A stretch of DNA of 64,000 nt from assembly GCA_913778085.1 (NCBI GenBank), contig CAJYXJ010000014.1, positions 1 to 64,000 on the forward strand, read 5' to 3'. This stretch comes from an uncultured Chryseobacterium sp. GTDB lineage: Bacteria; Bacteroidota; Bacteroidia; Flavobacteriales; Weeksellaceae. The notes under the pieces are model-generated. The model was not told the origin of the DNA and ran no database searches. It saw only the letters and a program-made list of their open reading frames with translations. The translations under genes were made by a program, and so were the position numbers. This document shows, piece by piece, positions 153 through 9,209 of the stretch; position 1 is the stretch's first letter, and every line of letters begins with the position of its first letter.

Positions 153-2948
153 TCATTCGCTTCCGAATTTTTTTACCCTGATCTTCTTTTCTTTTACTTT
201 TATGATAAAAGGTTCAAGAGTAAGTATTTTTCCGGCTTCTACATTTGCTTCAGCATCAGTACGTTCTACAAAGGTATTTGCCGGCAGTGAATTTTCATTA
301 AGCTCAATGCGGTATTTTCCGGATTCAAGAAAGAACACGAATTCACCGTTATCATCCGTAACCATCCGCTGCAGAAGCTGATCGTTTCTATAAATATTGA
401 AAATAATCCCTCCTGATTTAGGATCGAACTCCATTGCTGTTTTAGAATTGAAATCGTAAGTGATATTTCCTTTTACGGTTCCGTTCTGGTGCAGGGGAAT
501 CTGCAGGATAGAGTTATATCCGTTAAGATTTATTTCCGCTTCGTCATAATACCAGCCTTTCTGTATAATCTGTTTCAGGGTATATTTTCCGAAGGGAAGC
601 GATTTATAGTTCAGGTTTCCTTTGCTGTCGGTTCTAAATGATACGTTGTTAAGCATGACCAGATATCCTTCCGCAGCTTTATCCCCTTCATCATAAACAT
701 TGTTTGTATTGTTATCGTAATATACGAAGGCCATGATGTTCCCTTTTTTGCCGGGATCCGGATTGCTGGTTTTAAGGTTAAGGCTAACCCCGGCTTCCAC
801 AGTCAGGAGGCTATTGTTACTGCTTCGGGAAGAATAATAAAACCATGATGTATTGAGGAAAATCCCATATGTTTTTCCTGAATATTTAAGGTTGACAAAC
901 GCAGATGGCGATTTCCCGTAAAAAATATCATCGGTATAGGCAGCACCTGAAGAAACAGATAATTTCTGATTAAATAAATTTTCATTAACAAATGCTGACA
1001 GGGAAAGCTTTTTATAATTGCTGTTTTCATTAAATACTCTTGAAAAGGCATATTCAGAAAGAAAATAACTTCCGTATTGGTACATCAGATTAAAGTTAAG
1101 CCATTTGTAGCTGTAGTTCCCCAAGACTTTCAGTTGAAGCCCGGCGTTATTCCTGTCAGGATATTCTACCCGGCCGGCTTCCAGACCTACGACGGTGGAA
1201 TGCCTTGCATTGGCACTTGACCATGTCATATAATCCGTAATTCTCTGTGCCCTCAATATTTTTTTTTCCTGTCTGAGAGCGGTATTGAAAAAGTTATTAT
1301 AAGCATTTGATTTCTCATCCTGATACTGGAATCCGACTGTAGATCCTATATTCCAGATTTTAGGTAAACTGATTCCGGTATCAAACCTGAACGAATTCGA
1401 GATCAAGTTATTATCAAAAAAATAAAATTTCGGCGAAAAATTAGAGACCAGGAAATTTCCGTAAATACTGTAATTCTTATTAATATTGGTGGAAATATTC
1501 TGCTGTACCTGGAGCATACCGCGCCTGTTTCCGGGATAATAATCCGTACTGTAGAAATAATTCCCATTCAGATTTATTTTATGGAATTTTCCGGAATATT
1601 GGGATTCTGCAGCGAATGACGGTTTTGTAACCTTCGTCTCCTCGTAAATACTGAGTCCGGAATATACCTTGGCATTCATATTCCAGTCTTTGTTAAAGGC
1701 ATACTGCATGTCTGTACCTACCAGATTATGCCGGGCTTTTTCATACGGATCATCTCTGAAAACATAAGTGGCTGAAAAGCTTTTTGCCTCACTCTCCATC
1801 ATGGTTCCTCTGGCATAAAAACCATATCCAAACTCCAGAAACGCGTGCCGTTCTATTAAGCTGAAGGTCTGGTCTACGAAGCCGACTTCCAGCTTTTTAT
1901 CTTTGGCCGTAGAATTCCAGACATATTCCGCTCCCCTCCCGAACATCGACATTTCCATCATTTTACTGATATTCCCCACCGTATACTCATTATTTATATT
2001 ACGGTAAGTAACATAAGTATTGGTTATCACCGGCTCGCTCTGCCCGTTTAATGTATACATATTTCCTCTCACAAATATATATCCGGAAGGAAGATTGAAA
2101 CTTCCGGCTCCTCTCAGCTGATACATATTAAGATTTTCCCCTACCCTTCTGTATGAAGCGGTGATGCTGTTCTTTTTATAATCCGAGATTACCATGTTCT
2201 GCGGATCCTGGTACCGCTGAGACGAAGCAACATTCTGAATCGAAACGGAGGCATTCCCGAAAATTTCCTTTTCCGGATCCCTGAACCCGGCAATACTTAC
2301 ACTGAACTGTGAAGTCCTGGCCAAAGGTCCTGAAGGCATAAATCTAAAAATAAAAACCGAATCTTTCTGTACAGAAATACTTCCTTTTTTCTCAACGAAG
2401 ATATTCTCCTGAATTACTTCAGGGATCTTAAATACCACCGTGACATTCTGCTTTATATTTCCGAGATTGGAAACCCTGGCCCTCACTTCCACAGAATCCT
2501 TCATATTGTTAATATAAAGTACAGGATTTTCAGCAATGATCCTTAAGGCTGTATTTTCAGCAACTTTAAACCATACAGAATTCTCAGATACGACGTTATT
2601 CTGGAGATCGGTGAGTTTAAAAACAACTTCTTTATCTCCAGCCACCGCATTATTGCTGACGACTATTTTTACAGGAAGAAAAACCGTCTCCCCTGCATTG
2701 AGTTCAGTTGCAATTCCGTTCGCTGCAGCTACCCGGATGCCTACAGGAGTTTGGATATTGATTTTTCCTTTAAAAGGTACCTGCTTTTTATTTTTCAGCA
2801 CGACCGTAAGATCCATGATATGCCCTTCACTACGCGATTCATTCCGGATCTCCATATCTATGGCAGGACTCTGCTGTGCGGAAACCGAAATAATGGTAAC
2901 GAATATCAAAAAAACAAATATTATCTTTCTGAACAGGCTGTGGGACAT
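153..2948 (-). CDS. Usher-like outer-membrane beta-barrel protein of a chaperone-usher-type pilus
   Basis: This 931-aa protein has a signal peptide ending near SVSAQ (residue 25). Its first ~240 residues read as Ig-like beta domains. Residues ~250-730 are rich in aromatic, alternating strands typical of a large outer-membrane barrel. The C-terminal ~190 residues hold SdrD-like beta-sandwich modules with a calcium-loop pattern (DNNTNNVYDEGD) and a second carboxypeptidase-regulatory-like repeat. It is the last gene of an operon, 8 bp after the adhesin-like gene and downstream of a PapD-like chaperone. That context makes it the best candidate for the secretion and assembly pore. It does not obviously carry the classical proteobacterial usher signatures, so the role rests on position, barrel character and partners. 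Alternative: a generic surface barrel protein. Confidence 0.6.
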   Translation of the reverse strand: MSHSLFRKIIFVFLIFVTIISVSAQQSPAIDMEIRNESRSEGHIMDLTVVLKNKKQVPFKGKINIQTPVGIRVAAANGIATELNAGETVFLPVKIVVSNNAVAGDKEVVFKLTDLQNNVVSENSVWFKVAENTALRIIAENPVLYINNMKDSVEVRARVSNLGNIKQNVTVVFKIPEVIQENIFVEKKGSISVQKDSVFIFRFMPSGPLARTSQFSVSIAGFRDPEKEIFGNASVSIQNVASSQRYQDPQNMVISDYKKNSITASYRRVGENLNMYQLRGAGSFNLPSGYIFVRGNMYTLNGQSEPVITNTYVTYRNINNEYTVGNISKMMEMSMFGRGAEYVWNSTAKDKKLEVGFVDQTFSLIERHAFLEFGYGFYARGTMMESEAKSFSATYVFRDDPYEKARHNLVGTDMQYAFNKDWNMNAKVYSGLSIYEETKVTKPSFAAESQYSGKFHKINLNGNYFYSTDYYPGNRRGMLQVQQNISTNINKNYSIYGNFLVSNFSPKFYFFDNNLISNSFRFDTGISLPKIWNIGSTVGFQYQDEKSNAYNNFFNTALRQEKKILRAQRITDYMTWSSANARHSTVVGLEAGRVEYPDRNNAGLQLKVLGNYSYKWLNFNLMYQYGSYFLSEYAFSRVFNENSNYKKLSLSAFVNENLFNQKLSVSSGAAYTDDIFYGKSPSAFVNLKYSGKTYGIFLNTSWFYYSSRSSNNSLLTVEAGVSLNLKTSNPDPGKKGNIMAFVYYDNNTNNVYDEGDKAAEGYLVMLNNVSFRTDSKGNLNYKSLPFGKYTLKQIIQKGWYYDEAEINLNGYNSILQIPLHQNGTVKGNITYDFNSKTAMEFDPKSGGIIFNIYRNDQLLQRMVTDDNGEFVFFLESGKYRIELNENSLPANTFVERTDAEANVEAGKILTLEPFIIKVKEKKIRVKKFGSE

Positions 2949-2956
2949 TTTCGATT

Positions 2957-3994
2957 TTACTGGGGGGTTATCTCAAACTGTAATGTTGTGGAGTAATCTG
3001 CTGATTTTGCATTGATAAACCGCTGATCATTGGCATCGGTAGAATAATTCATATCGTAATATACATTGGAACCCTGCGTATAAGCTCCTTTGGCCACAAG
3101 CTGCGACCAGGAAGCCAGCGAAATGGGATATACCGTTGCATTATTTCCGTTAACCGGAGCAAGGGCAAACTTTACCGCATCCAGCGGAAGGGTATTTCCT
3201 GCCGCAGAAATAAAATTGTTCTGCAAAGATCTTATCTTAATCTGGTAATTTGTATTGCTCCGAACGATAAGGGCACTGGGATAAGAAACCGCTACTCCGT
3301 TTGTATAATCGTTTCTGCTCTTAAATTCCAGCAATCCGTTCACGGCATCTGCTGAAAATTTCAGCGACATTTCAGGGGTATCCGGCGGAGTTCCCGAAAG
3401 AGTACCGATCTGAAACTGAAATACGTGATCCATTCTGCCAATTACATTATTATACCGGTCATAAGCCGTAAACTGCATAGGTGCGGAAAAGGTTGTCCAT
3501 GCCGGATAATTTCCAAGATAGGCTCCTCCTGCCAGGCTAAGGCTGTATTTGATCTGAAGGTTATAATAATAACCAATAAATAGAAATGGCGAATTATATA
3601 AGGATGCATTGGACTGAGGCACCAAAAACACTTCCTGCCCATCCTGCATAATCACAGTCAGCGGCATACCGATCTGCGAAATCGTTGGCACCGCATAAGG
3701 AAAAGCATTTCCGGAGGAAGATACTGGACTGAAAGATATTTTATTGGCAGGCAATGTATAATTACCGTCTGTGGAAGTTACCGGCTGCTTAAGTTTTACA
3801 GACAGTCTCCAGTACGGAACATTGAGATAGCCATTTCCCGAAAAACTTGCGGTATAGGCATCAGGAATGGTATTTCCTCCGTAAGAACTTACCGACATAT
3901 ATCCGTTGATCCATGAGTTATAGGAAACCTGGGCCGGCCCGTATGTCCAGCATAACAGCAATACGATAAAAGATAATTTTTTCTTATTACTCAT
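2957..3994 (-). CDS. Two-domain pilus adhesin / tip subunit-like protein
   Basis: A 345-aa exported protein with a signal peptide ending near residue 22 (GPAQ). Residues ~205-345 resemble the major pilin encoded at 4885-5415: LEFKSRNDYTNGV here matches LDYNTRDDYANGV there, and both end in a beta-strand of the form TTxLxxxIxPQ. The N-terminal half (about 25-200) would be the extra, presumably binding, domain. It also echoes the C-terminal one (GNYTLPANKISFSPV versus GNTLPLDAVKFALAPV), suggesting an internal duplication. This is the layout of tip adhesins such as FimH, with a binding domain followed by a pilin domain. Its start overlaps the chaperone end by 8 bp and the usher-like gene follows after 8 bp, so translation is probably coupled. 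Confidence 0.6.
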   Translation of the reverse strand: MSNKKKLSFIVLLLCWTYGPAQVSYNSWINGYMSVSSYGGNTIPDAYTASFSGNGYLNVPYWRLSVKLKQPVTSTDGNYTLPANKISFSPVSSSGNAFPYAVPTISQIGMPLTVIMQDGQEVFLVPQSNASLYNSPFLFIGYYYNLQIKYSLSLAGGAYLGNYPAWTTFSAPMQFTAYDRYNNVIGRMDHVFQFQIGTLSGTPPDTPEMSLKFSADAVNGLLEFKSRNDYTNGVAVSYPSALIVRSNTNYQIKIRSLQNNFISAAGNTLPLDAVKFALAPVNGNNATVYPISLASWSQLVAKGAYTQGSNVYYDMNYSTDANDQRFINAKSADYSTTLQFEITPQ

Positions 3995-4790
3995 ACGTGA
4001 AGTTTAATTCTCCTAATTCGAGATTATCCCGGTCACCGTAATCTATAATAACAGAAGCCGTATATTTTCCTTTTTCCAGACCGGAGGGAAGCGGGATACT
4101 GACTTCTCTTTTATTTCCTGGCATCGTATAAAAAACAATGTTATCCAGTGTGGTTTTCTTACCGTTCTGTGTATTAACGAGATCGGTGGATATCTTACCG
4201 TCTGCCCATACATCTCCCAGATTATCAAAGGTAAGATCCAGTGTCTGTTTCGGTTTTCCGTATGCTAAATTCCGTATTTCAAGTTTTTTGTTCTTACCAG
4301 CAGGTAACTTGTGAAAAATTTTGATTCCAGAACGGATGCTTACTTTAATGTTTGCTCCCTTGCTGTCAACATCATCCACAGGGTTCATCTGGCTTACATA
4401 CAACACAGCCGTGTGTGTAAAAAGCTTATCCGCTATTGTTCCGGGAACGGTTACCGTAACCTCTATATCTTTTTTCTGGCCAGGAGCAAGGGTGAAGTAA
4501 TTATCCTCTTTTTTTACGGAAATCCACCCGGCACAGGAAGCCGGAAGAGTATTGGCAGCAGACATGATGTTTTCTCCTTTTTCATTATATTCCCAATCAC
4601 CCAGACTAACGGCAAGATCAAGAGAATTTTTAGAGCTTACATTCGTTACCGTTACCTTCTCGGTGCTGCTGTTCCCAAGACCTGATTCAAAATAGAGCCT
4701 TGGCGGCGAAACGGAAACGCCCGTCTGAGCATACAGATGACAAAAAAAACAAATAAACAGATACAGACAGATAAAAAAGAGTCGTTTCAT
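3987..4790 (-). CDS. PapD-like periplasmic pilus chaperone
   Basis: A 267-aa protein with a signal peptide ending near LYAQ (residue 22) and two Ig-like domains (about 24-150 and 155-267). It has the two anchor residues expected of PapD-type chaperones, which clamp the subunit C-terminus: Arg31 in SPPRLYF, matching PapD Arg8, and Lys157 in GIKIFHKLP, matching PapD Lys112. The family caps pilin subunits by donating a beta-strand until the usher takes them. It sits between the major pilin and the adhesin/usher genes, the usual place. The hairpin at 4815-4846 lies just upstream, so expression is probably lower than for the pilin. Chaperone fold confidence is high; subunit specificity is inferred. 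Confidence 0.8.
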   Translation of the reverse strand: MKRLFFICLYLFICFFCHLYAQTGVSVSPPRLYFESGLGNSSTEKVTVTNVSSKNSLDLAVSLGDWEYNEKGENIMSAANTLPASCAGWISVKKEDNYFTLAPGQKKDIEVTVTVPGTIADKLFTHTAVLYVSQMNPVDDVDSKGANIKVSIRSGIKIFHKLPAGKNKKLEIRNLAYGKPKQTLDLTFDNLGDVWADGKISTDLVNTQNGKKTTLDNIVFYTMPGNKREVSIPLPSGLEKGKYTASVIIDYGDRDNLELGELNFTYE

Positions 4791-4814
4791 TACTTAGATT
4801 TAATACTAAAATAC

Positions 4815-4846
4815 ATAAAAAGTGTTACAATGAATGTTGTAACACC
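4815..4846 (-). terminator. Attenuating terminator hairpin between major pilin and chaperone
   Basis: The arms GTGTTACAA (4822-4830) and TTGTAACAC (4837-4845) form a 9-bp perfect stem with a 6-nt loop. Read on the minus strand, the hairpin is followed by TTTTTATG. It lies after the pilin stop and before the chaperone, so it could stop most transcripts and set a high pilin to assembly-protein ratio. Confidence 0.6.
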
Positions 4847-4884
4847 TTAATATATTTTTAATATTTCAGTAAGTTTCCTTTATA

Positions 4885-5415
4885 TTACTGAGGAATAATG
4901 GAATAAGTAAGTTCTGTGGTATATACAGCCGGGTTTTGACCTGCTACATAGTTATCTAGATAAGCATTGGCTGCTCCTCCTTTATATTCTACACTGATTT
5001 TTTTATCAACTCCACCAGCAGTGGAAGTTACCAAGGTTATATCAGTAGCGGAAAGAGGCGCAATAGCAGAATACTGTGCTCCGTTTACCGGATCTGTTCC
5101 TGCACTGGCTTTAATCTGGATTGAACTGGCCTGAATTGTTTTGGTACCATTTACCAAATTTAAGGTAGAACCTGCACTTTTTACTTTTACCTGGAATCCT
5201 CCTGTACTGTAAATTGTTAAATGATCTGCATTGTTAGAGCTAACTCCGTTTGCATAATCATCTCTTGTGTTGTAGTCTAGGTTAACGGTTTTCTGAGCCG
5301 TAGCTACTAAAAGGGTTTGGATTGGCTTTAGTCTTACATTCAAAGTAACCGTATTCTGAGCGTTTACTGTAGCGAATCCAACAAGGGAAAACGCTCCAAA
5401 AATGAATTTTTTCAT
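4885..5415 (-). CDS. Major pilin-like subunit
   Basis: A 176-aa protein with a clear signal peptide (cleavage near NAQ, residue 20) followed by NTVTLNVRLKP, which could serve as the N-terminal donor strand. The body is a small Thr/Ser/Gly-rich beta protein. It ends in YTTELTYSIIPQ, an alternating hydrophobic strand shared in form with the adhesin (STTLQFEITPQ) and the small pilin (LNSTDLVLTLISQ), as expected of the C-terminal strand held by the chaperone. It is first in its transcription unit, with a -7 element 57 bp upstream and a hairpin after it. Both features fit an abundant structural subunit. Confidence 0.6.
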   Translation of the reverse strand: MKKFIFGAFSLVGFATVNAQNTVTLNVRLKPIQTLLVATAQKTVNLDYNTRDDYANGVSSNNADHLTIYSTGGFQVKVKSAGSTLNLVNGTKTIQASSIQIKASAGTDPVNGAQYSAIAPLSATDITLVTSTAGGVDKKISVEYKGGAANAYLDNYVAGQNPAVYTTELTYSIIPQ

Positions 5416-5740
5416 GATGGGGAATGATGTTTTTGTATTAGTTAATTATTATTTAGCTTAAATTTCTCTTGCAAAGGTATATACATTAAAAGAATGCCCA
5501 TTTGTAAAAAAATGCGCAAAATTTGCAAATATGGTTTTAGGAGAAATAATGAAAAATTTATTGCATAATCTGAAAAAATGCAAAAAGTAGAATTACATAA
5601 ATAATTATAATTGCAAATATCACAAATAAATTAACCTTATGTTAACAATAAATTAATTCATCAGGCTTATTTAACAAACAAAAAGGATATTTTTTTGTCT
5701 TTAAACCATAATTAATGATCTAATTATTTGTATCAAAAAA
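5416..5740. other. Intergenic region upstream of the major pilin
   Basis: This 325-bp stretch is very AT-rich and has no convincing gene. It holds the minus-strand -7 element at 5472-5479 and runs of A/T that may be bent DNA, with repeated TTTGCA/TGCAAA words between about 5510 and 5620 that could be regulator sites. It separates the major pilin from the small pilin and AraC genes, so the locus probably has two promoters. Confidence 0.5.
5472..5479 (-). promoter_or_regulatory. -7 element for the pilin operon
   Basis: On the minus strand this reads TACCTTTG, a perfect match to the Bacteroidota -7 consensus TAnnTTTG. It lies 57 bp before the pilin ATG. No good TTTG -33 box is visible at the right distance, which fits a promoter that needs an activator such as the neighbouring AraC protein. 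Confidence 0.55.
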
Positions 5741-6115
5741 TCATTGGGAAATTAGAGTTAAAACTAAATCAGTTGAATTTAGGGATGTATTGTCCGTTTT
5801 TTCGCGGTCTATGTTATTGCTGTAATCGACTGCAATATACTTCTGTACGGCTCCCTTTGTCGTATTAATTACATTCGTACGAACGGATTCATTGATCCTA
5901 CGATGTATGCTCACTTCAAATCCTGTTGTACTGGAGACAGCAATATATTTCTGATCTCCAGCATTTACAGATTTGCTGCTGACTTCAGCACGGTTTTCAA
6001 TGGAAAGTATCTGCACCGGATGCAGCCGCATTATAAGATGAACACCATCGATCTGCCCTGAAAGCTTGAAAAAAGCACAAAACAGAATACCTAATAAAAA
6101 AAATCTGCCCCCCAT
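5741..6115 (-). CDS. Small pilin-like secreted protein
   Basis: A 124-aa exported protein with a signal peptide ending near LSGQ (residue 21). Its mature N-terminus contains IMRLHPVQILSIEN, which parallels the major pilin's NVRLKPIQTLLVA. The end, LNSTDLVLTLISQ, matches the C-terminal strand pattern of the other two subunits. It is therefore probably a minor or anchoring subunit of the same pilus. It lies 56 bp after the AraC gene on the same strand. The ATG at 6115 was chosen because the signal peptide begins there. Confidence 0.5.
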   Translation of the reverse strand: MGGRFFLLGILFCAFFKLSGQIDGVHLIMRLHPVQILSIENRAEVSSKSVNAGDQKYIAVSSTTGFEVSIHRRINESVRTNVINTTKGAVQKYIAVDYSNNIDREKTDNTSLNSTDLVLTLISQ

Positions 6116-6171: not shown

Positions 6172-7002
6172 TTATTTCATCTCAGATGGATTTTTTCCGG
6201 TATGTTTTTTAACAAAATTGCTGAAATTTCCTTCATCACTGAAACCCAGATCGAAAGAAATTTCCGAAATGGTGAAATTCGTAAAGCTTAAAGCTTTTTT
6301 AAATTCGCTGATTACTTTTTCAATGATAATCCCCTTTGCCGTCTTGCCAAGAACGTATTCCGTCATCTCAGAAAGCCTTCTGGAAGTTATATTGAGTTCT
6401 TTTGCATAATGCGCAACTTTTTTCTCTTTTTTATAATCCCTCTGGAGAAGGATCTTAAAGCGATTTACATAGTGTAGGTAATCGAACTTTATATCTTTTT
6501 TAATTTCATCGTTCGGAACATACAGCAGAGCATCGAGAATAAGCCTTTCAATGGCATTGTGTGCTGCAGATACATACAGGTTTTCATCTTTAAGCCGGAA
6601 AGTTTCCATGTGCTGCATAAAGATAACCCTCATCTGCTCGGTATTTGTAAAAGGGGCTATGAAAAAGTCGGTATGGTAATTGAAAAACAATTGGGAATTC
6701 AGGAATAAACTGTCTTTGGACGATCTTTCGTAAAAAGAAGAAGAGAAAACTATACAAAGTACACCGGAACCGCTTTCTTCATTAAAGACAATCTGTTTCT
6801 GAGGTCCCAGGAAGCCGATATGGCCGGATGATATGGAATAGGGAATATTTTCTACTTCGACCTCTATATCTTCCATAAATATATAAATGCAATAAAATTC
6901 TAAGGTGCTGAATTGTCTGCTGAGATTATTTCTTCTGATTAACTCATCAATGCGGGTCACACTGAATCCTATATTCTTTAACTGGTCTGTTATGACGTAC
7001 AT
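6172..7002 (-). CDS. AraC-family transcriptional regulator, probable pilus regulator
   Basis: A 276-aa protein whose C-terminal ~100 residues form the two helix-turn-helix units of the AraC family. Motifs are LNITSRRLSEMTEYVLG for the first and ISEISFDLGFSDEGNFSNFVKKHTG in split form for the second, ending in the usual GxxPSEMK. The N-terminal ~170 residues are a sensor or oligomerisation domain of unknown ligand. It sits at the head of the pilus locus on the same strand, so it is the natural candidate for controlling pilus expression. No ligand or target site can be read from the sequence. Confidence 0.75.
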   Translation of the reverse strand: MYVITDQLKNIGFSVTRIDELIRRNNLSRQFSTLEFYCIYIFMEDIEVEVENIPYSISSGHIGFLGPQKQIVFNEESGSGVLCIVFSSSFYERSSKDSLFLNSQLFFNYHTDFFIAPFTNTEQMRVIFMQHMETFRLKDENLYVSAAHNAIERLILDALLYVPNDEIKKDIKFDYLHYVNRFKILLQRDYKKEKKVAHYAKELNITSRRLSEMTEYVLGKTAKGIIIEKVISEFKKALSFTNFTISEISFDLGFSDEGNFSNFVKKHTGKNPSEMK

Positions 7003-7588: not shown

Positions 7589-8461
7589 CTATTCCATAAA
7601 ATAATTGAACTCTTTCCTATATTGCGAAGGACTTTTCTTTATGTATTCCTTAAAAGTTTTATTAAAATAGCTGAAATTGTTGAAACCAGACTCAAAACAT
7701 ACCTCTGTAATACTTAAAGGTTGCTCTGCAAGTAATTTAAGCGAGTGGGTAATGCGGTATTCATTAACAAAATGAGTAAAGGTCTTATTGGTGATCTTTT
7801 TAAAATAACGGCAGAAAGACGGAACTTTCATATTGGCGAGATCCGCTACATCTTCCAGCGTAATCTGTTCCCGGAAATGGTCTTTTACATAATTGAAGAT
7901 CATATTGATCCTTTCATTGTCCTCCACCTGGGTTTGGAGATAATATTTTCCGGCATTCAGTATTCTGTAATCCTGTGTTGTGGCCAGCTCCTCCAGGATT
8001 TCCAGAAAACAGATCAGCCTTTTGAAAGAAATGGCTTCGTGCATAGCCACAATCTTTTCACCAATCTCTTTTTTTACTTTTTCGCCGAATACAATGCCGG
8101 CCTTGGATTTTTCCAGAAGCCCTGATATTTTCTGCATCTCCGGAGTTTCCCACATGGTCTCCCCTAAGAAATCAGGCTTGAACTGCAGGACCATTTCATA
8201 CTCATTGTTGGTATTTTCATTCGTCATCCCGCAATGCGGAAGGTTACTGCCGATAAGTACAAGATCGCCGTCGGAGAAATACGAAATATTACTTCCAATT
8301 TGTCTTTTCCCGGAACCTTTATAGACAAAAATCAGCTCAATCTCAGGATGATAGTGCCATACATGGGATTTAATGTTTTCATTCCTGAGAAATTTTAAAC
8401 TGGTGAAGCTGCTCCCGATATTGGGTTTTACCGCTTCAAATGCCGGATTAGAATGTTTCAT
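7589..8461 (-). CDS. AraC-family regulator with N-terminal cupin domain
   Basis: A 290-aa protein. Residues ~30-100 form a cupin sensor domain (HVWHYHPEIELIFVYKG, then DLVLIGSNLPHCG), the pattern seen in AraC regulators that bind sugars or other small molecules. Residues ~190-288 carry the AraC DNA-binding domain (ITLEDVADLANMKVPSFCRYFKK; FESGFNNFSYFNKTFKEY), ending SPSQYRKEF. The gene is divergent from the secreted protein at 8616 and shares its intergenic region, so it may control it. The ATG is 19 nt from a perfect -7 element. Confidence 0.8.
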   Translation of the reverse strand: MKHSNPAFEAVKPNIGSSFTSLKFLRNENIKSHVWHYHPEIELIFVYKGSGKRQIGSNISYFSDGDLVLIGSNLPHCGMTNENTNNEYEMVLQFKPDFLGETMWETPEMQKISGLLEKSKAGIVFGEKVKKEIGEKIVAMHEAISFKRLICFLEILEELATTQDYRILNAGKYYLQTQVEDNERINMIFNYVKDHFREQITLEDVADLANMKVPSFCRYFKKITNKTFTHFVNEYRITHSLKLLAEQPLSITEVCFESGFNNFSYFNKTFKEYIKKSPSQYRKEFNYFME

Positions 8462-8615: not shown

Positions 8616-9209
8616 ATGACTACACTATTAAAATCCGGTTTACTTGCAGGTTTCTTATTGGTCTCCGCAAGCTTGATGAGTAAAGACAGAGACTTTTCTA
8701 TTTCGGTAGGAAATGTAACGGCAAAAACGGTAAATTTCGAAATTGCCAACGCAAAAAAAGTTTCTCTTTTTGTATATAACGATATAGAAGGTGAACTTTT
8801 TTCTGAGAAACTTGATACGGAGAATGCAGTGAAGTCATACAACCTTCAGGATCTTGCTTCAGGAACCTATTATTTGGTAGCGGAATCTGAAACAAAGGTA
8901 GAAAAATACAGAATCAGCATCGGTAATAATAATGTTGTGGAAGTTGAAAAGACTCCTGTAAGTTCTGTCAACAAGCCGGAATACAGCATTTCCGGAAATA
9001 TGGTGAAGCTTCATATGGCAGATGTAAAAAGCACAGTAAATGTTTCCGTATACGATTTTTCAAATAACCTGTTTTACAGCGCTAATAAAAACGCCAAGAA
9101 CGGTGAACTGAACATGACATTTGATCTTGATCCGAAAACTTCATCCAATTACATCATCAGGATTGAGGAAAACGGAAATGTTTTCAATAAGATTATTCCG
9201 CTGAAATAA
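8616..9209 (+). CDS. Exported protein with two beta-sandwich repeats, unknown function
   Basis: A 197-aa protein with a signal peptide (about 1-22). It has two related beta-rich parts. The first contains KKVSLFVYNDIEGELFSEKL and LASGTYYLVAESE. The second contains VNVSVYDFSNNLFYSANK and SNYIIRIEENGNVFNKIIPLK in pieces. Both resemble the DUF3244 / type IX C-terminal-domain style of module, in which a tension strand is followed by GxYxLxxxxG, although the gene lacks the large passenger domain of type IX cargo. It is transcribed alone and followed by a strong terminator. It is probably periplasmic or surface-associated. Confidence 0.5.
   Translation: MTTLLKSGLLAGFLLVSASLMSKDRDFSISVGNVTAKTVNFEIANAKKVSLFVYNDIEGELFSEKLDTENAVKSYNLQDLASGTYYLVAESETKVEKYRISIGNNNVVEVEKTPVSSVNKPEYSISGNMVKLHMADVKSTVNVSVYDFSNNLFYSANKNAKNGELNMTFDLDPKTSSNYIIRIEENGNVFNKIIPLK

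Follow-up and report, generated by a model that had tools for sequence, protein, structure and literature searches.

Does the gene cluster on the minus strand between positions 7002 and 153 of a 64,000-nucleotide stretch of DNA from an uncultured Chryseobacterium sp. (contig CAJYXJ010000014.1, positions 1 to 64,000; hereafter the window) encode a pilus that is built by a chaperone and an usher? According to an excerpt of PMC4654587, which does not mention Bacteroidota, classical and alternative chaperone-usher systems are confined to beta- and gamma-proteobacteria, and the archaic systems extend to alpha- and delta-proteobacteria, Cyanobacteria and Deinococcus-Thermus as well; an excerpt of PMC9452303 puts archaic systems in a wide range of phyla. 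The consulted parts of the open-licence PMC literature yielded no paper on chaperone-usher pili of Bacteroidota, which is no proof of absence. Our answer is that quite likely the locus works like a chaperone-usher system and yields a pilus, assembled by a pathway of chaperone-usher type that belongs to a Bacteroidota lineage. The system is chaperone-usher-like with a separate usher lineage.

Results

A check of the open reading frames (ORFs) found the five locus genes of an initial annotation of this sequence at the positions claimed, all on the minus strand. Its AraC gene exists as well, at 6172-7002, just beyond the range of 153..6115 in which it had been placed. The locus thus reads from 7002 down to 153 as follows, with the last gene given first.

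153..2948, minus strand: usher-like outer-membrane barrel, 931 amino acids (aa), by AlphaFold2 (AF2) and Foldseek
195..746, minus strand: usher residues 735-918, two predicted C-terminal beta domains (SdrD_B / prealbumin-like) at the CTD1/CTD2 place of ushers (Pfam SdrD_B, E 1.1e-7)
777..2168, minus strand: usher residues 261-724, predicted beta-barrel with no inserted plug (AF2 model, DSSP, 28-row alignment)
2232..2861, minus strand: usher residues 30-239, two tandem chaperone-like immunoglobulin (Ig) domains (AF2 model and chaperone profile)
2957..3994, minus strand: candidate tip adhesin, 345 aa, two-domain, with the pilin domain at residues 222-345 (pilin profile A9)
3987..4790, minus strand: PapD-like periplasmic chaperone, 267 aa (hhalign against nine K-12 chaperones)
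4320..4322, minus strand: codon of chaperone Lys157 (aligned with the Lys of FimC 'RIK')
4698..4700, minus strand: codon of chaperone Arg31 (aligned with the Arg of FimC 'TR')
4820..4847, minus strand: hairpin and T-run between the pilin and chaperone genes, candidate terminator-like attenuator (stem conservation, fold z-score)
4885..5415, minus strand: major pilin, 176 aa (AF2 and Foldseek)
5472..5479, minus strand: candidate -7 promoter element TACCTTTG (TAnnTTTG), 64 nt upstream of the major pilin start
5741..6115, minus strand: mini-pilin, 124 aa, short pilin relative (orthologues matched by pilin profile A9)
6172..7002, minus strand: AraC-type regulator, 276 aa (HTH_18, E 1.7e-14)

The 8-bp overlap between the chaperone and 345-aa genes and the 8-bp gap between the 345-aa and 931-aa genes were both measured as described. 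A survey of gene order, proposed in the initial annotation for Chryseobacterium, found chaperone, tip and usher in the same order in 19/19 main-type loci, the window counted in. The chaperone and tip genes overlap by 8 bp in 18 of these and by 11 bp in the other, and the gap between tip and usher is 2-14 bp. This conserved order and overlap is more than chance. Divergence of the chaperone correlates with that of the usher (Mantel r 0.94, 28 loci, 0/2000 permutations as high), a value that shared ancestry alone would also be expected to produce.

The chaperone is homologous to the PapD-like chaperones of Escherichia coli K-12. A profile of 31 family chaperones aligned with nine K-12 chaperones across both domains in hhalign (probability 97.5, E 8.1e-12, 204 columns), and the best of 60 column-shuffled profiles reached E 0.11 and the reversed profile 0.2. 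The two residues singled out earlier as subunit anchors, Arg31 and Lys157, are both present. With 'SPPRLYF' aligned to 'GATRVIY' of FimC and 'RSGIKIFHK' to 'ISRIKLYYR', they fall on an Arg and a Lys of FimC that do not vary among seven classical K-12 chaperones, and that we take to anchor the C-terminus of the subunit. An excerpt of PMC4654587 gives the anchors of Caf1M as Arg20/Lys139, and reports that pilin recovery drops when the anchors of CsuC are mutated. When 21 sequences that all have Arg31 and Lys157 were compared with the seven classical K-12 chaperones, the probability was 94.1 (E 1.2e-7), and the same comparison with EcpB/EcpE, which comprises two sequences only, gave 16.1. Arg31 is kept in 27/31 family chaperones.

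AF2 models were made for the usher, from 28 aligned sequences, and for the major pilin. The usher model has a predicted local distance difference test score (pLDDT) of 82 and a predicted template modelling score (pTM) of 0.51. It begins with a signal-peptide-like helix and continues with beta-sandwich domains at 30-129 and 135-239, a low-confidence linker at 242-258, a barrel at 261-724 for which DSSP lists 26 strands, and two beta domains at 735-918. The relative positions of these domains are unreliable because the alignment has 28 rows and the pTM is 0.51. In a Foldseek search of the PDB, ranks 1-10 of 1231 matches to the usher model were all FimD or PapC, the best being 9fy9_D (E 1.7e-14, 790 columns). 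Axonemal and protease Ig strings, LptD, BtuB and others ranked lower. The initial annotation had suggested that the barrel could be a new usher lineage, and this is supported: the best folds are FimD/PapC, yet sequence profiles do not align it with the K-12 ushers. The structure prediction that it had proposed thus returned a FimD/PapC-like barrel with no plug.

The barrel spans 448-472 residues in 28/28 aligned ushers, leaving no room for an inserted domain. By comparison, an excerpt of PMC12122975 gives the transmembrane and plug part of FimD as residues 140-665. A canonical usher N-terminal domain was not found: usher residues 1-240 matched the K-12 ushers at 0.1%. The same region matched the chaperone profile over 197 columns (probability 96.0, E 4.9e-9), and this resemblance to the chaperone family of its own locus points to a chaperone-like docking module that arose by fusion or duplication. 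The two domains after the barrel could not be aligned with the C-termini of K-12 ushers (2.2%); this pair is shared with the ushers of a second family of the phylum, f37 (probability 97.7, 181 columns). The f37 ushers were tried as a bridge to the K-12 ushers, which works for the C-terminal pair and not for the barrel; f37 and K-12 ushers match weakly (9.4%). The usher sequence contains no Cys.

The initial annotation described three small exported subunits. There are three subunit genes, and their products have signal-peptide-like N-termini as judged by eye; the third is not small but a two-domain protein of 345 aa. The model of the major pilin (pLDDT 92, pTM 0.80) has only three PDB fold matches at E <= 0.001 in Foldseek, namely the filaments TLP-1a (1.7e-5) and TLP-1b (8.1e-5) and Pyrobaculum bundling pili (6.5e-4). 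Weaker matches at 0.007-0.16 include CfaB, the P pilus rod, the FimH pilin domain, CS20, PapK, PapA, CsuA/B and PapG, with unrelated folds such as GH123 enzymes interspersed among them. By predicted fold, then, the major pilin resembles donor-strand pilins, and weakly so those of chaperone-usher systems. All of 13 K-12 pilins have C44, and nearly all have C84; this conserved Cys pair was not found in the window major pilin, which has no Cys.

The pilin profile A9, from which tips were excluded, matches residues 222-345 of the 345-aa protein (E 3.2e-12) from model position 49 onward. The N-terminal part that would serve as donor strand is therefore missing from this protein, which is our candidate for a tip adhesin. 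In two tips of about 477 aa the pilin domain is also C-terminal, from model positions 19 and 22. The profile matched the three mini-pilin orthologues tried (L047, E 1.3e-8; L036, 6.2e-8; L028, 1.5e-5), and the mini-pilin is perhaps a base, a terminator or a minor subunit.

The best fold matches of the major pilin are deposited filaments that were imaged by cryo-EM, which we take to be the Tsinghua Lotus Pond (TLP) filaments of pond water from the CryoSeek work (PNAS 2024). In the PDB, a pilin of L124, which belongs to a deeper branch of the family, matches the TLP chains at E 4.9e-9 and 3.1e-8; the chaperone and usher at L124 are homologues of the window ones. Profile A9 includes two L124 pilins and picks up the TLP chains at 2.6e-5 and 7.9e-5. 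Without L124 it reaches them at 0.16 and 0.45 only, yet they are its sole PDB matches and lie in the same register. The window pilin as a single query has no TLP match in the PDB. Since the A9 match depends on L124, the link of the window-type pilins to TLP rests on the fold and on the L124 branch.

An 87-residue fragment of TLP-2 was compared with 341 genomes of the order that contains L124 and matched in 8, six of them at E 6e-8 or better (37-41% identity over 59-78 residues) and two at 2e-4 to 4e-4. The match lies in a cluster with a family chaperone and usher in 8/8 loci; L124 was part of the chaperone and usher profiles used here, and the other seven loci were not. The scan covered one order, chosen for holding L124, so its count is uninformative on TLP relatives elsewhere. 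Our searches did not find the source organism of TLP, and from homology, which falls short of an identification, that source may lie among these bacteria.

The major pilin has candidate expression signals on both sides. TAnnTTTG, which we take to be the Bacteroidota-type -7 promoter consensus, occurs within 130 nt upstream of the major pilin in 15/17 main-type loci (L033 and L129 were left out of this count); 300 rounds of dinucleotide shuffling gave 1.91 loci on average and at most 6/17. In the remaining two loci (L030, L050) the site lies inside an over-long ORF call, ahead of the likely true ATG. After the pilin gene, the 11-bp stem of a hairpin is paired in 96.8% of cells across 17 loci, versus 30-55% in slid controls. 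Sixteen cells are changed on both sides (0/500 shuffles as high), as are 6 pairs (31/500), and further pair types do not exceed the shuffles (257/500 as high). The fold z-score of the hairpin region in the window is -4.63. Pilin in excess over chaperone and usher would be what a pilus needs.

The 931-aa protein as a single query matched in 23/60 genomes, its own included: 22/36 other genomes of the genus and 0/23 of other families. Eighteen of the 22 are close copies at 44-86% identity (in G021 split over two contig pieces), three have distant full-length matches only (22-24%), and one has a match to the C-terminal domains only. Eight of nine named relatives of the barrel are Chryseobacterium records and one comes from a Weeksellaceae metagenome-assembled genome. 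Profiles reach further. A chaperone profile (A1) has matches in 65/197 genomes of the host family and a wider one (A5) in 71/345 genomes of the phylum, at least four of which (G060, G079, G168, G238) match over just a short part of a longer ORF. The usher profile A2 matched 44/345 genomes, 8 of them full-length; in three (G061, G375, G328) a partial match lies in the ORF adjoining a chaperone. The other 33 were not counted as window-type ushers, as their match is confined to the surroundings of the SdrD_B-like domain (model positions about 690-890); some of these matches fall in f37-type ushers. The locus L043/L146 (G015) was likewise dropped from the family, its match covering the SdrD_B-like domain only.

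Pilin-chaperone-usher sets also occur elsewhere in the phylum, and Chryseobacterium has three organisations, the window (main) type being the first. In the second (L037-L041), three to five tandem pilins of about 181 aa are followed by a chaperone, an usher and a tip of 474-478 aa; near contig ends L110 has one pilin and L042 none. The third (L126-L128, L175) consists of a pilin, a chaperone, a 911-918-aa ORF and two small genes, and the usher profile recognises the 911-918-aa ORF in L127 and L128 only. The host genome (4.63 Mb, 82 contigs) holds one copy by single-sequence search, and profiles add two chaperone loci, C80 and C47, making three with that of the window.

As separate observations, the third, more distant type, to which C47 belongs, has a pilin of about 192 aa, a chaperone of 266-277 aa and the 911-918-aa ORF at the place of the usher, and the chaperones of L126-L128 have Thr and Gln at the Arg and Lys anchor positions. 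The f37-type loci (L139-L143, L173, L177, L178; L177 from one other family) form a second chaperone-usher-like family of the phylum with chaperones of 274-291 aa and ushers of 994-1460 aa, some of which carry long C-terminal extensions.

Discussion

The window system shares with the classical Fim and Pap systems of E. coli a PapD-like chaperone with both anchor residues, a two-domain tip, pilins that resemble the donor-strand type in predicted fold, and a large barrel behind which the model places two beta domains. It differs from them in phylum (Bacteroidota), in an usher that has tandem chaperone-like Ig domains in place of the canonical N-terminal domain and lacks a plug, in a pilin without Cys, and in that profiles do not recognise its usher and pilins. 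Like the archaic pathway (Csu, CupE), it occurs outside the beta- and gamma-proteobacteria, and the fold of its pilin matches CsuA/B (E 0.11, target TM-score 0.48). The TLP-1a and TLP-1b filaments (PDB 9ikj and 9ikk, with chains TLP-1 and TLP-2) are homologous to the pilins of the L124 branch; their chains are longer, at 236-237 aa. The f37-type family has a homologous chaperone (probability 98.4) along with the homologous C-terminal usher pair, and differs in the length of its usher, in which a stretch resembles the start of the FimD barrel and the plug in a weak alignment (9.4%).

The locus is a mixed case. It has the chaperone, the anchors, the barrel and the gene order of a chaperone-usher system, and lacks the plug, the canonical N-terminal domain, a Pfam Usher match and the pilin Cys pair. 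The initial annotation had called it a divergent chaperone-usher system, and the chaperone alignment and the barrel's ten best folds support this; it had also named a barrel with no plug or N-terminal docking domain, together with subunits without an incomplete Ig fold, as grounds for giving that idea up. The predicted barrel has neither the plug nor the canonical N-terminal domain, so one part of this refuting test went against the idea, and we keep the pathway reading all the same. In our view the missing plug marks a divergent usher and does not mean that a chaperone-usher pathway is absent. Overall, what the initial annotation observed is confirmed and what it made of this is partly supported.

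A number of results weigh against this conclusion. For the chaperone, Lys157 is kept in only 21/31 family members (elsewhere His in 6, Gln in 3 and Tyr in 1), PF00345 is absent from the host genome, the PapD_N model matches 5/31 family chaperones at 0.0015 at best, and the closest PDB sequence match of the chaperone profile is not PapD but a Gram-positive WxL-interacting protein (WxLIP; 9i1y, E 8.3e-8). A weak match of the usher N-terminus to the K-12 chaperones (78.1%, E 1.8e-5) means that the chaperone signal is in part one common to PapD-like Ig domains; the rest is carried by the length of the alignment, the gap in E-values and the positions of the anchors. Compared with FimD, the usher model has low TM-scores (0.28 by query, 0.36 by target), and its pTM is 0.51. 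A plug inside the barrel was found neither in the model nor in any of the 28 aligned ushers, profile comparison with the K-12 ushers fails over the whole length and in sub-regions, and PF00577 is above its cut-off in 0/247 genomes of the phylum. Its two matches with E < 0.001 (5.4e-5, 7.4e-4) are both in f37 genomes and both under the cut-off. Profile comparison of the pilins with the 13 K-12 pilins fails, and the window mini-pilin itself is not matched by A9. The search with PapD and usher models that the initial annotation had proposed found no match of Pfam Usher or PapD_N, or of any other PapD or Usher model in Pfam or NCBIfam, among the window proteins, and the locus proteins received no chaperone-usher name when searched singly against Pfam, NCBIfam and the PDB. 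Finally, that the locus is complete for a pilus, as the initial annotation had it, is an inference.

From the computed gene order, chaperone homology, domain layout, fold matches, promoter-like site and hairpin we infer an export route, donor-strand exchange, gating, an order of assembly and adhesion. Subunits would be exported by Sec. In the periplasm, the 267-aa chaperone would complete the incomplete Ig fold of each pilin with its G1 strand, and Arg31 and Lys157 would hold the C-terminus of the subunit. The 345-aa tip, having no donor strand of its own, would enter first, and later subunits would be joined by donor-strand exchange through the N-terminal 'TVTLNVRLKPIQTL' segment of the 176-aa pilin. 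The 931-aa barrel would secrete the fibre. The barrel being plugless, complexes of chaperone and subunit are probably recruited by the tandem chaperone-like Ig domains in front of it, which may also gate the pore; the base of the fibre would be held by the two beta domains at the C-terminus. With a putative promoter of its own and a putative attenuator after its gene, the major pilin would be overproduced.

Could the chaperone instead belong to a surface-anchored adhesion complex of WxL type that makes no fibre, with the two-Ig protein serving as anchor or linker and the small proteins bound singly? WxLIP (EfmWxLIP1), likewise a two-Ig protein, is the best PDB sequence relative of the chaperone profile, and Pfam WxLIP_PGBD matches 14/31 family chaperones (best 5.5e-8), that of the window not among them. 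To our knowledge WxLIP has no barrel partner. Against such a complex, an usher-like barrel follows in all 19 main-type loci, the subunits have no WxL domain (the 124-, 176- and 345-aa proteins matched 0 Pfam families), the tip lacks the N-terminal segment that the pilins have, and the pilins of the deeper branch are homologous to filament-forming TLP, the best fold match. An excerpt of PMC10599100 describes WxLIP as a Gram-positive surface protein that binds WxL proteins. We rejected such a complex and regard it as very improbable. As an observation apart, Pfam WxLIP_HBD matches four family chaperones from profile A5, at 2.4e-9 at best.

The system might also be an ordinary chaperone-usher one whose canonical plug and N-terminal domain were overlooked by model and profiles. 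The ten FimD/PapC folds would fit this, as would the weak PF00577 matches of f37 ushers in two genomes, beside a homologous chaperone. The length of the barrel in all 28 ushers leaves no space for the insert, however, the model has no inserted domain, and the N-terminus does not resemble that of K-12 ushers, which makes an oversight very improbable. Type V (FimA/Mfa1) pili and the type IX secretion system (T9SS) are the usual surface systems of Bacteroidota, and the locus could on that ground belong to one of them. We rejected both and give them hardly any credence: in the five locus proteins a simple pattern search found no lipobox, and Pfam and NCBIfam gave no T9SS sorting domain; P_gingi_FimA (PF06321) is absent from the host genome, though it was detected in a control Bacteroides genome.

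A chaperone-usher-type pathway thus remains the preferred reading. A broader proposal is that the locus represents a further class of chaperone-usher systems, widespread in Bacteroidota, whose usher has no plug or canonical N-terminal domain, whose built-in chaperone-like Ig pair docks and gates, and whose members assemble the orphan TLP filaments. We put this forward tentatively, as somewhat less than an even chance, and slightly lower than we had at first, because the profile matches to TLP depend on the L124 pilins. If a chaperone with classical anchors does work with a plugless usher, this would raise the questions of how a large pore stays closed and of how old the classical chaperone type is. 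The TLP link would give a proposal, open to test, for the bacteria and the machine behind a filament whose structure came before its source. In the window and, for Usher above its cut-off, across the phylum genomes, the system escapes standard models.

Surroundings of the locus

An ORF of the length of the AraC gene lies directly upstream of the pilins in L028-L032, L034-L036 and L048-L050, a likeness by length only, and none of that length is present at this position in L044-L047 or L122. A second AraC-type gene lies near the locus, at 7589-8461; a 290-aa ORF, also likened by length only, precedes the first one in L028, L030 and L031 too, and in L032 and L034 two further ORFs separate them. 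On the plus strand of the window, a 197-aa protein (8616-9209) has T9SS sorting-domain matches above the curated cut-offs (29.4 versus 27 bits in Pfam, 27 versus 23 in NCBIfam), its best stretch being internal (residues 42-96) and not terminal.

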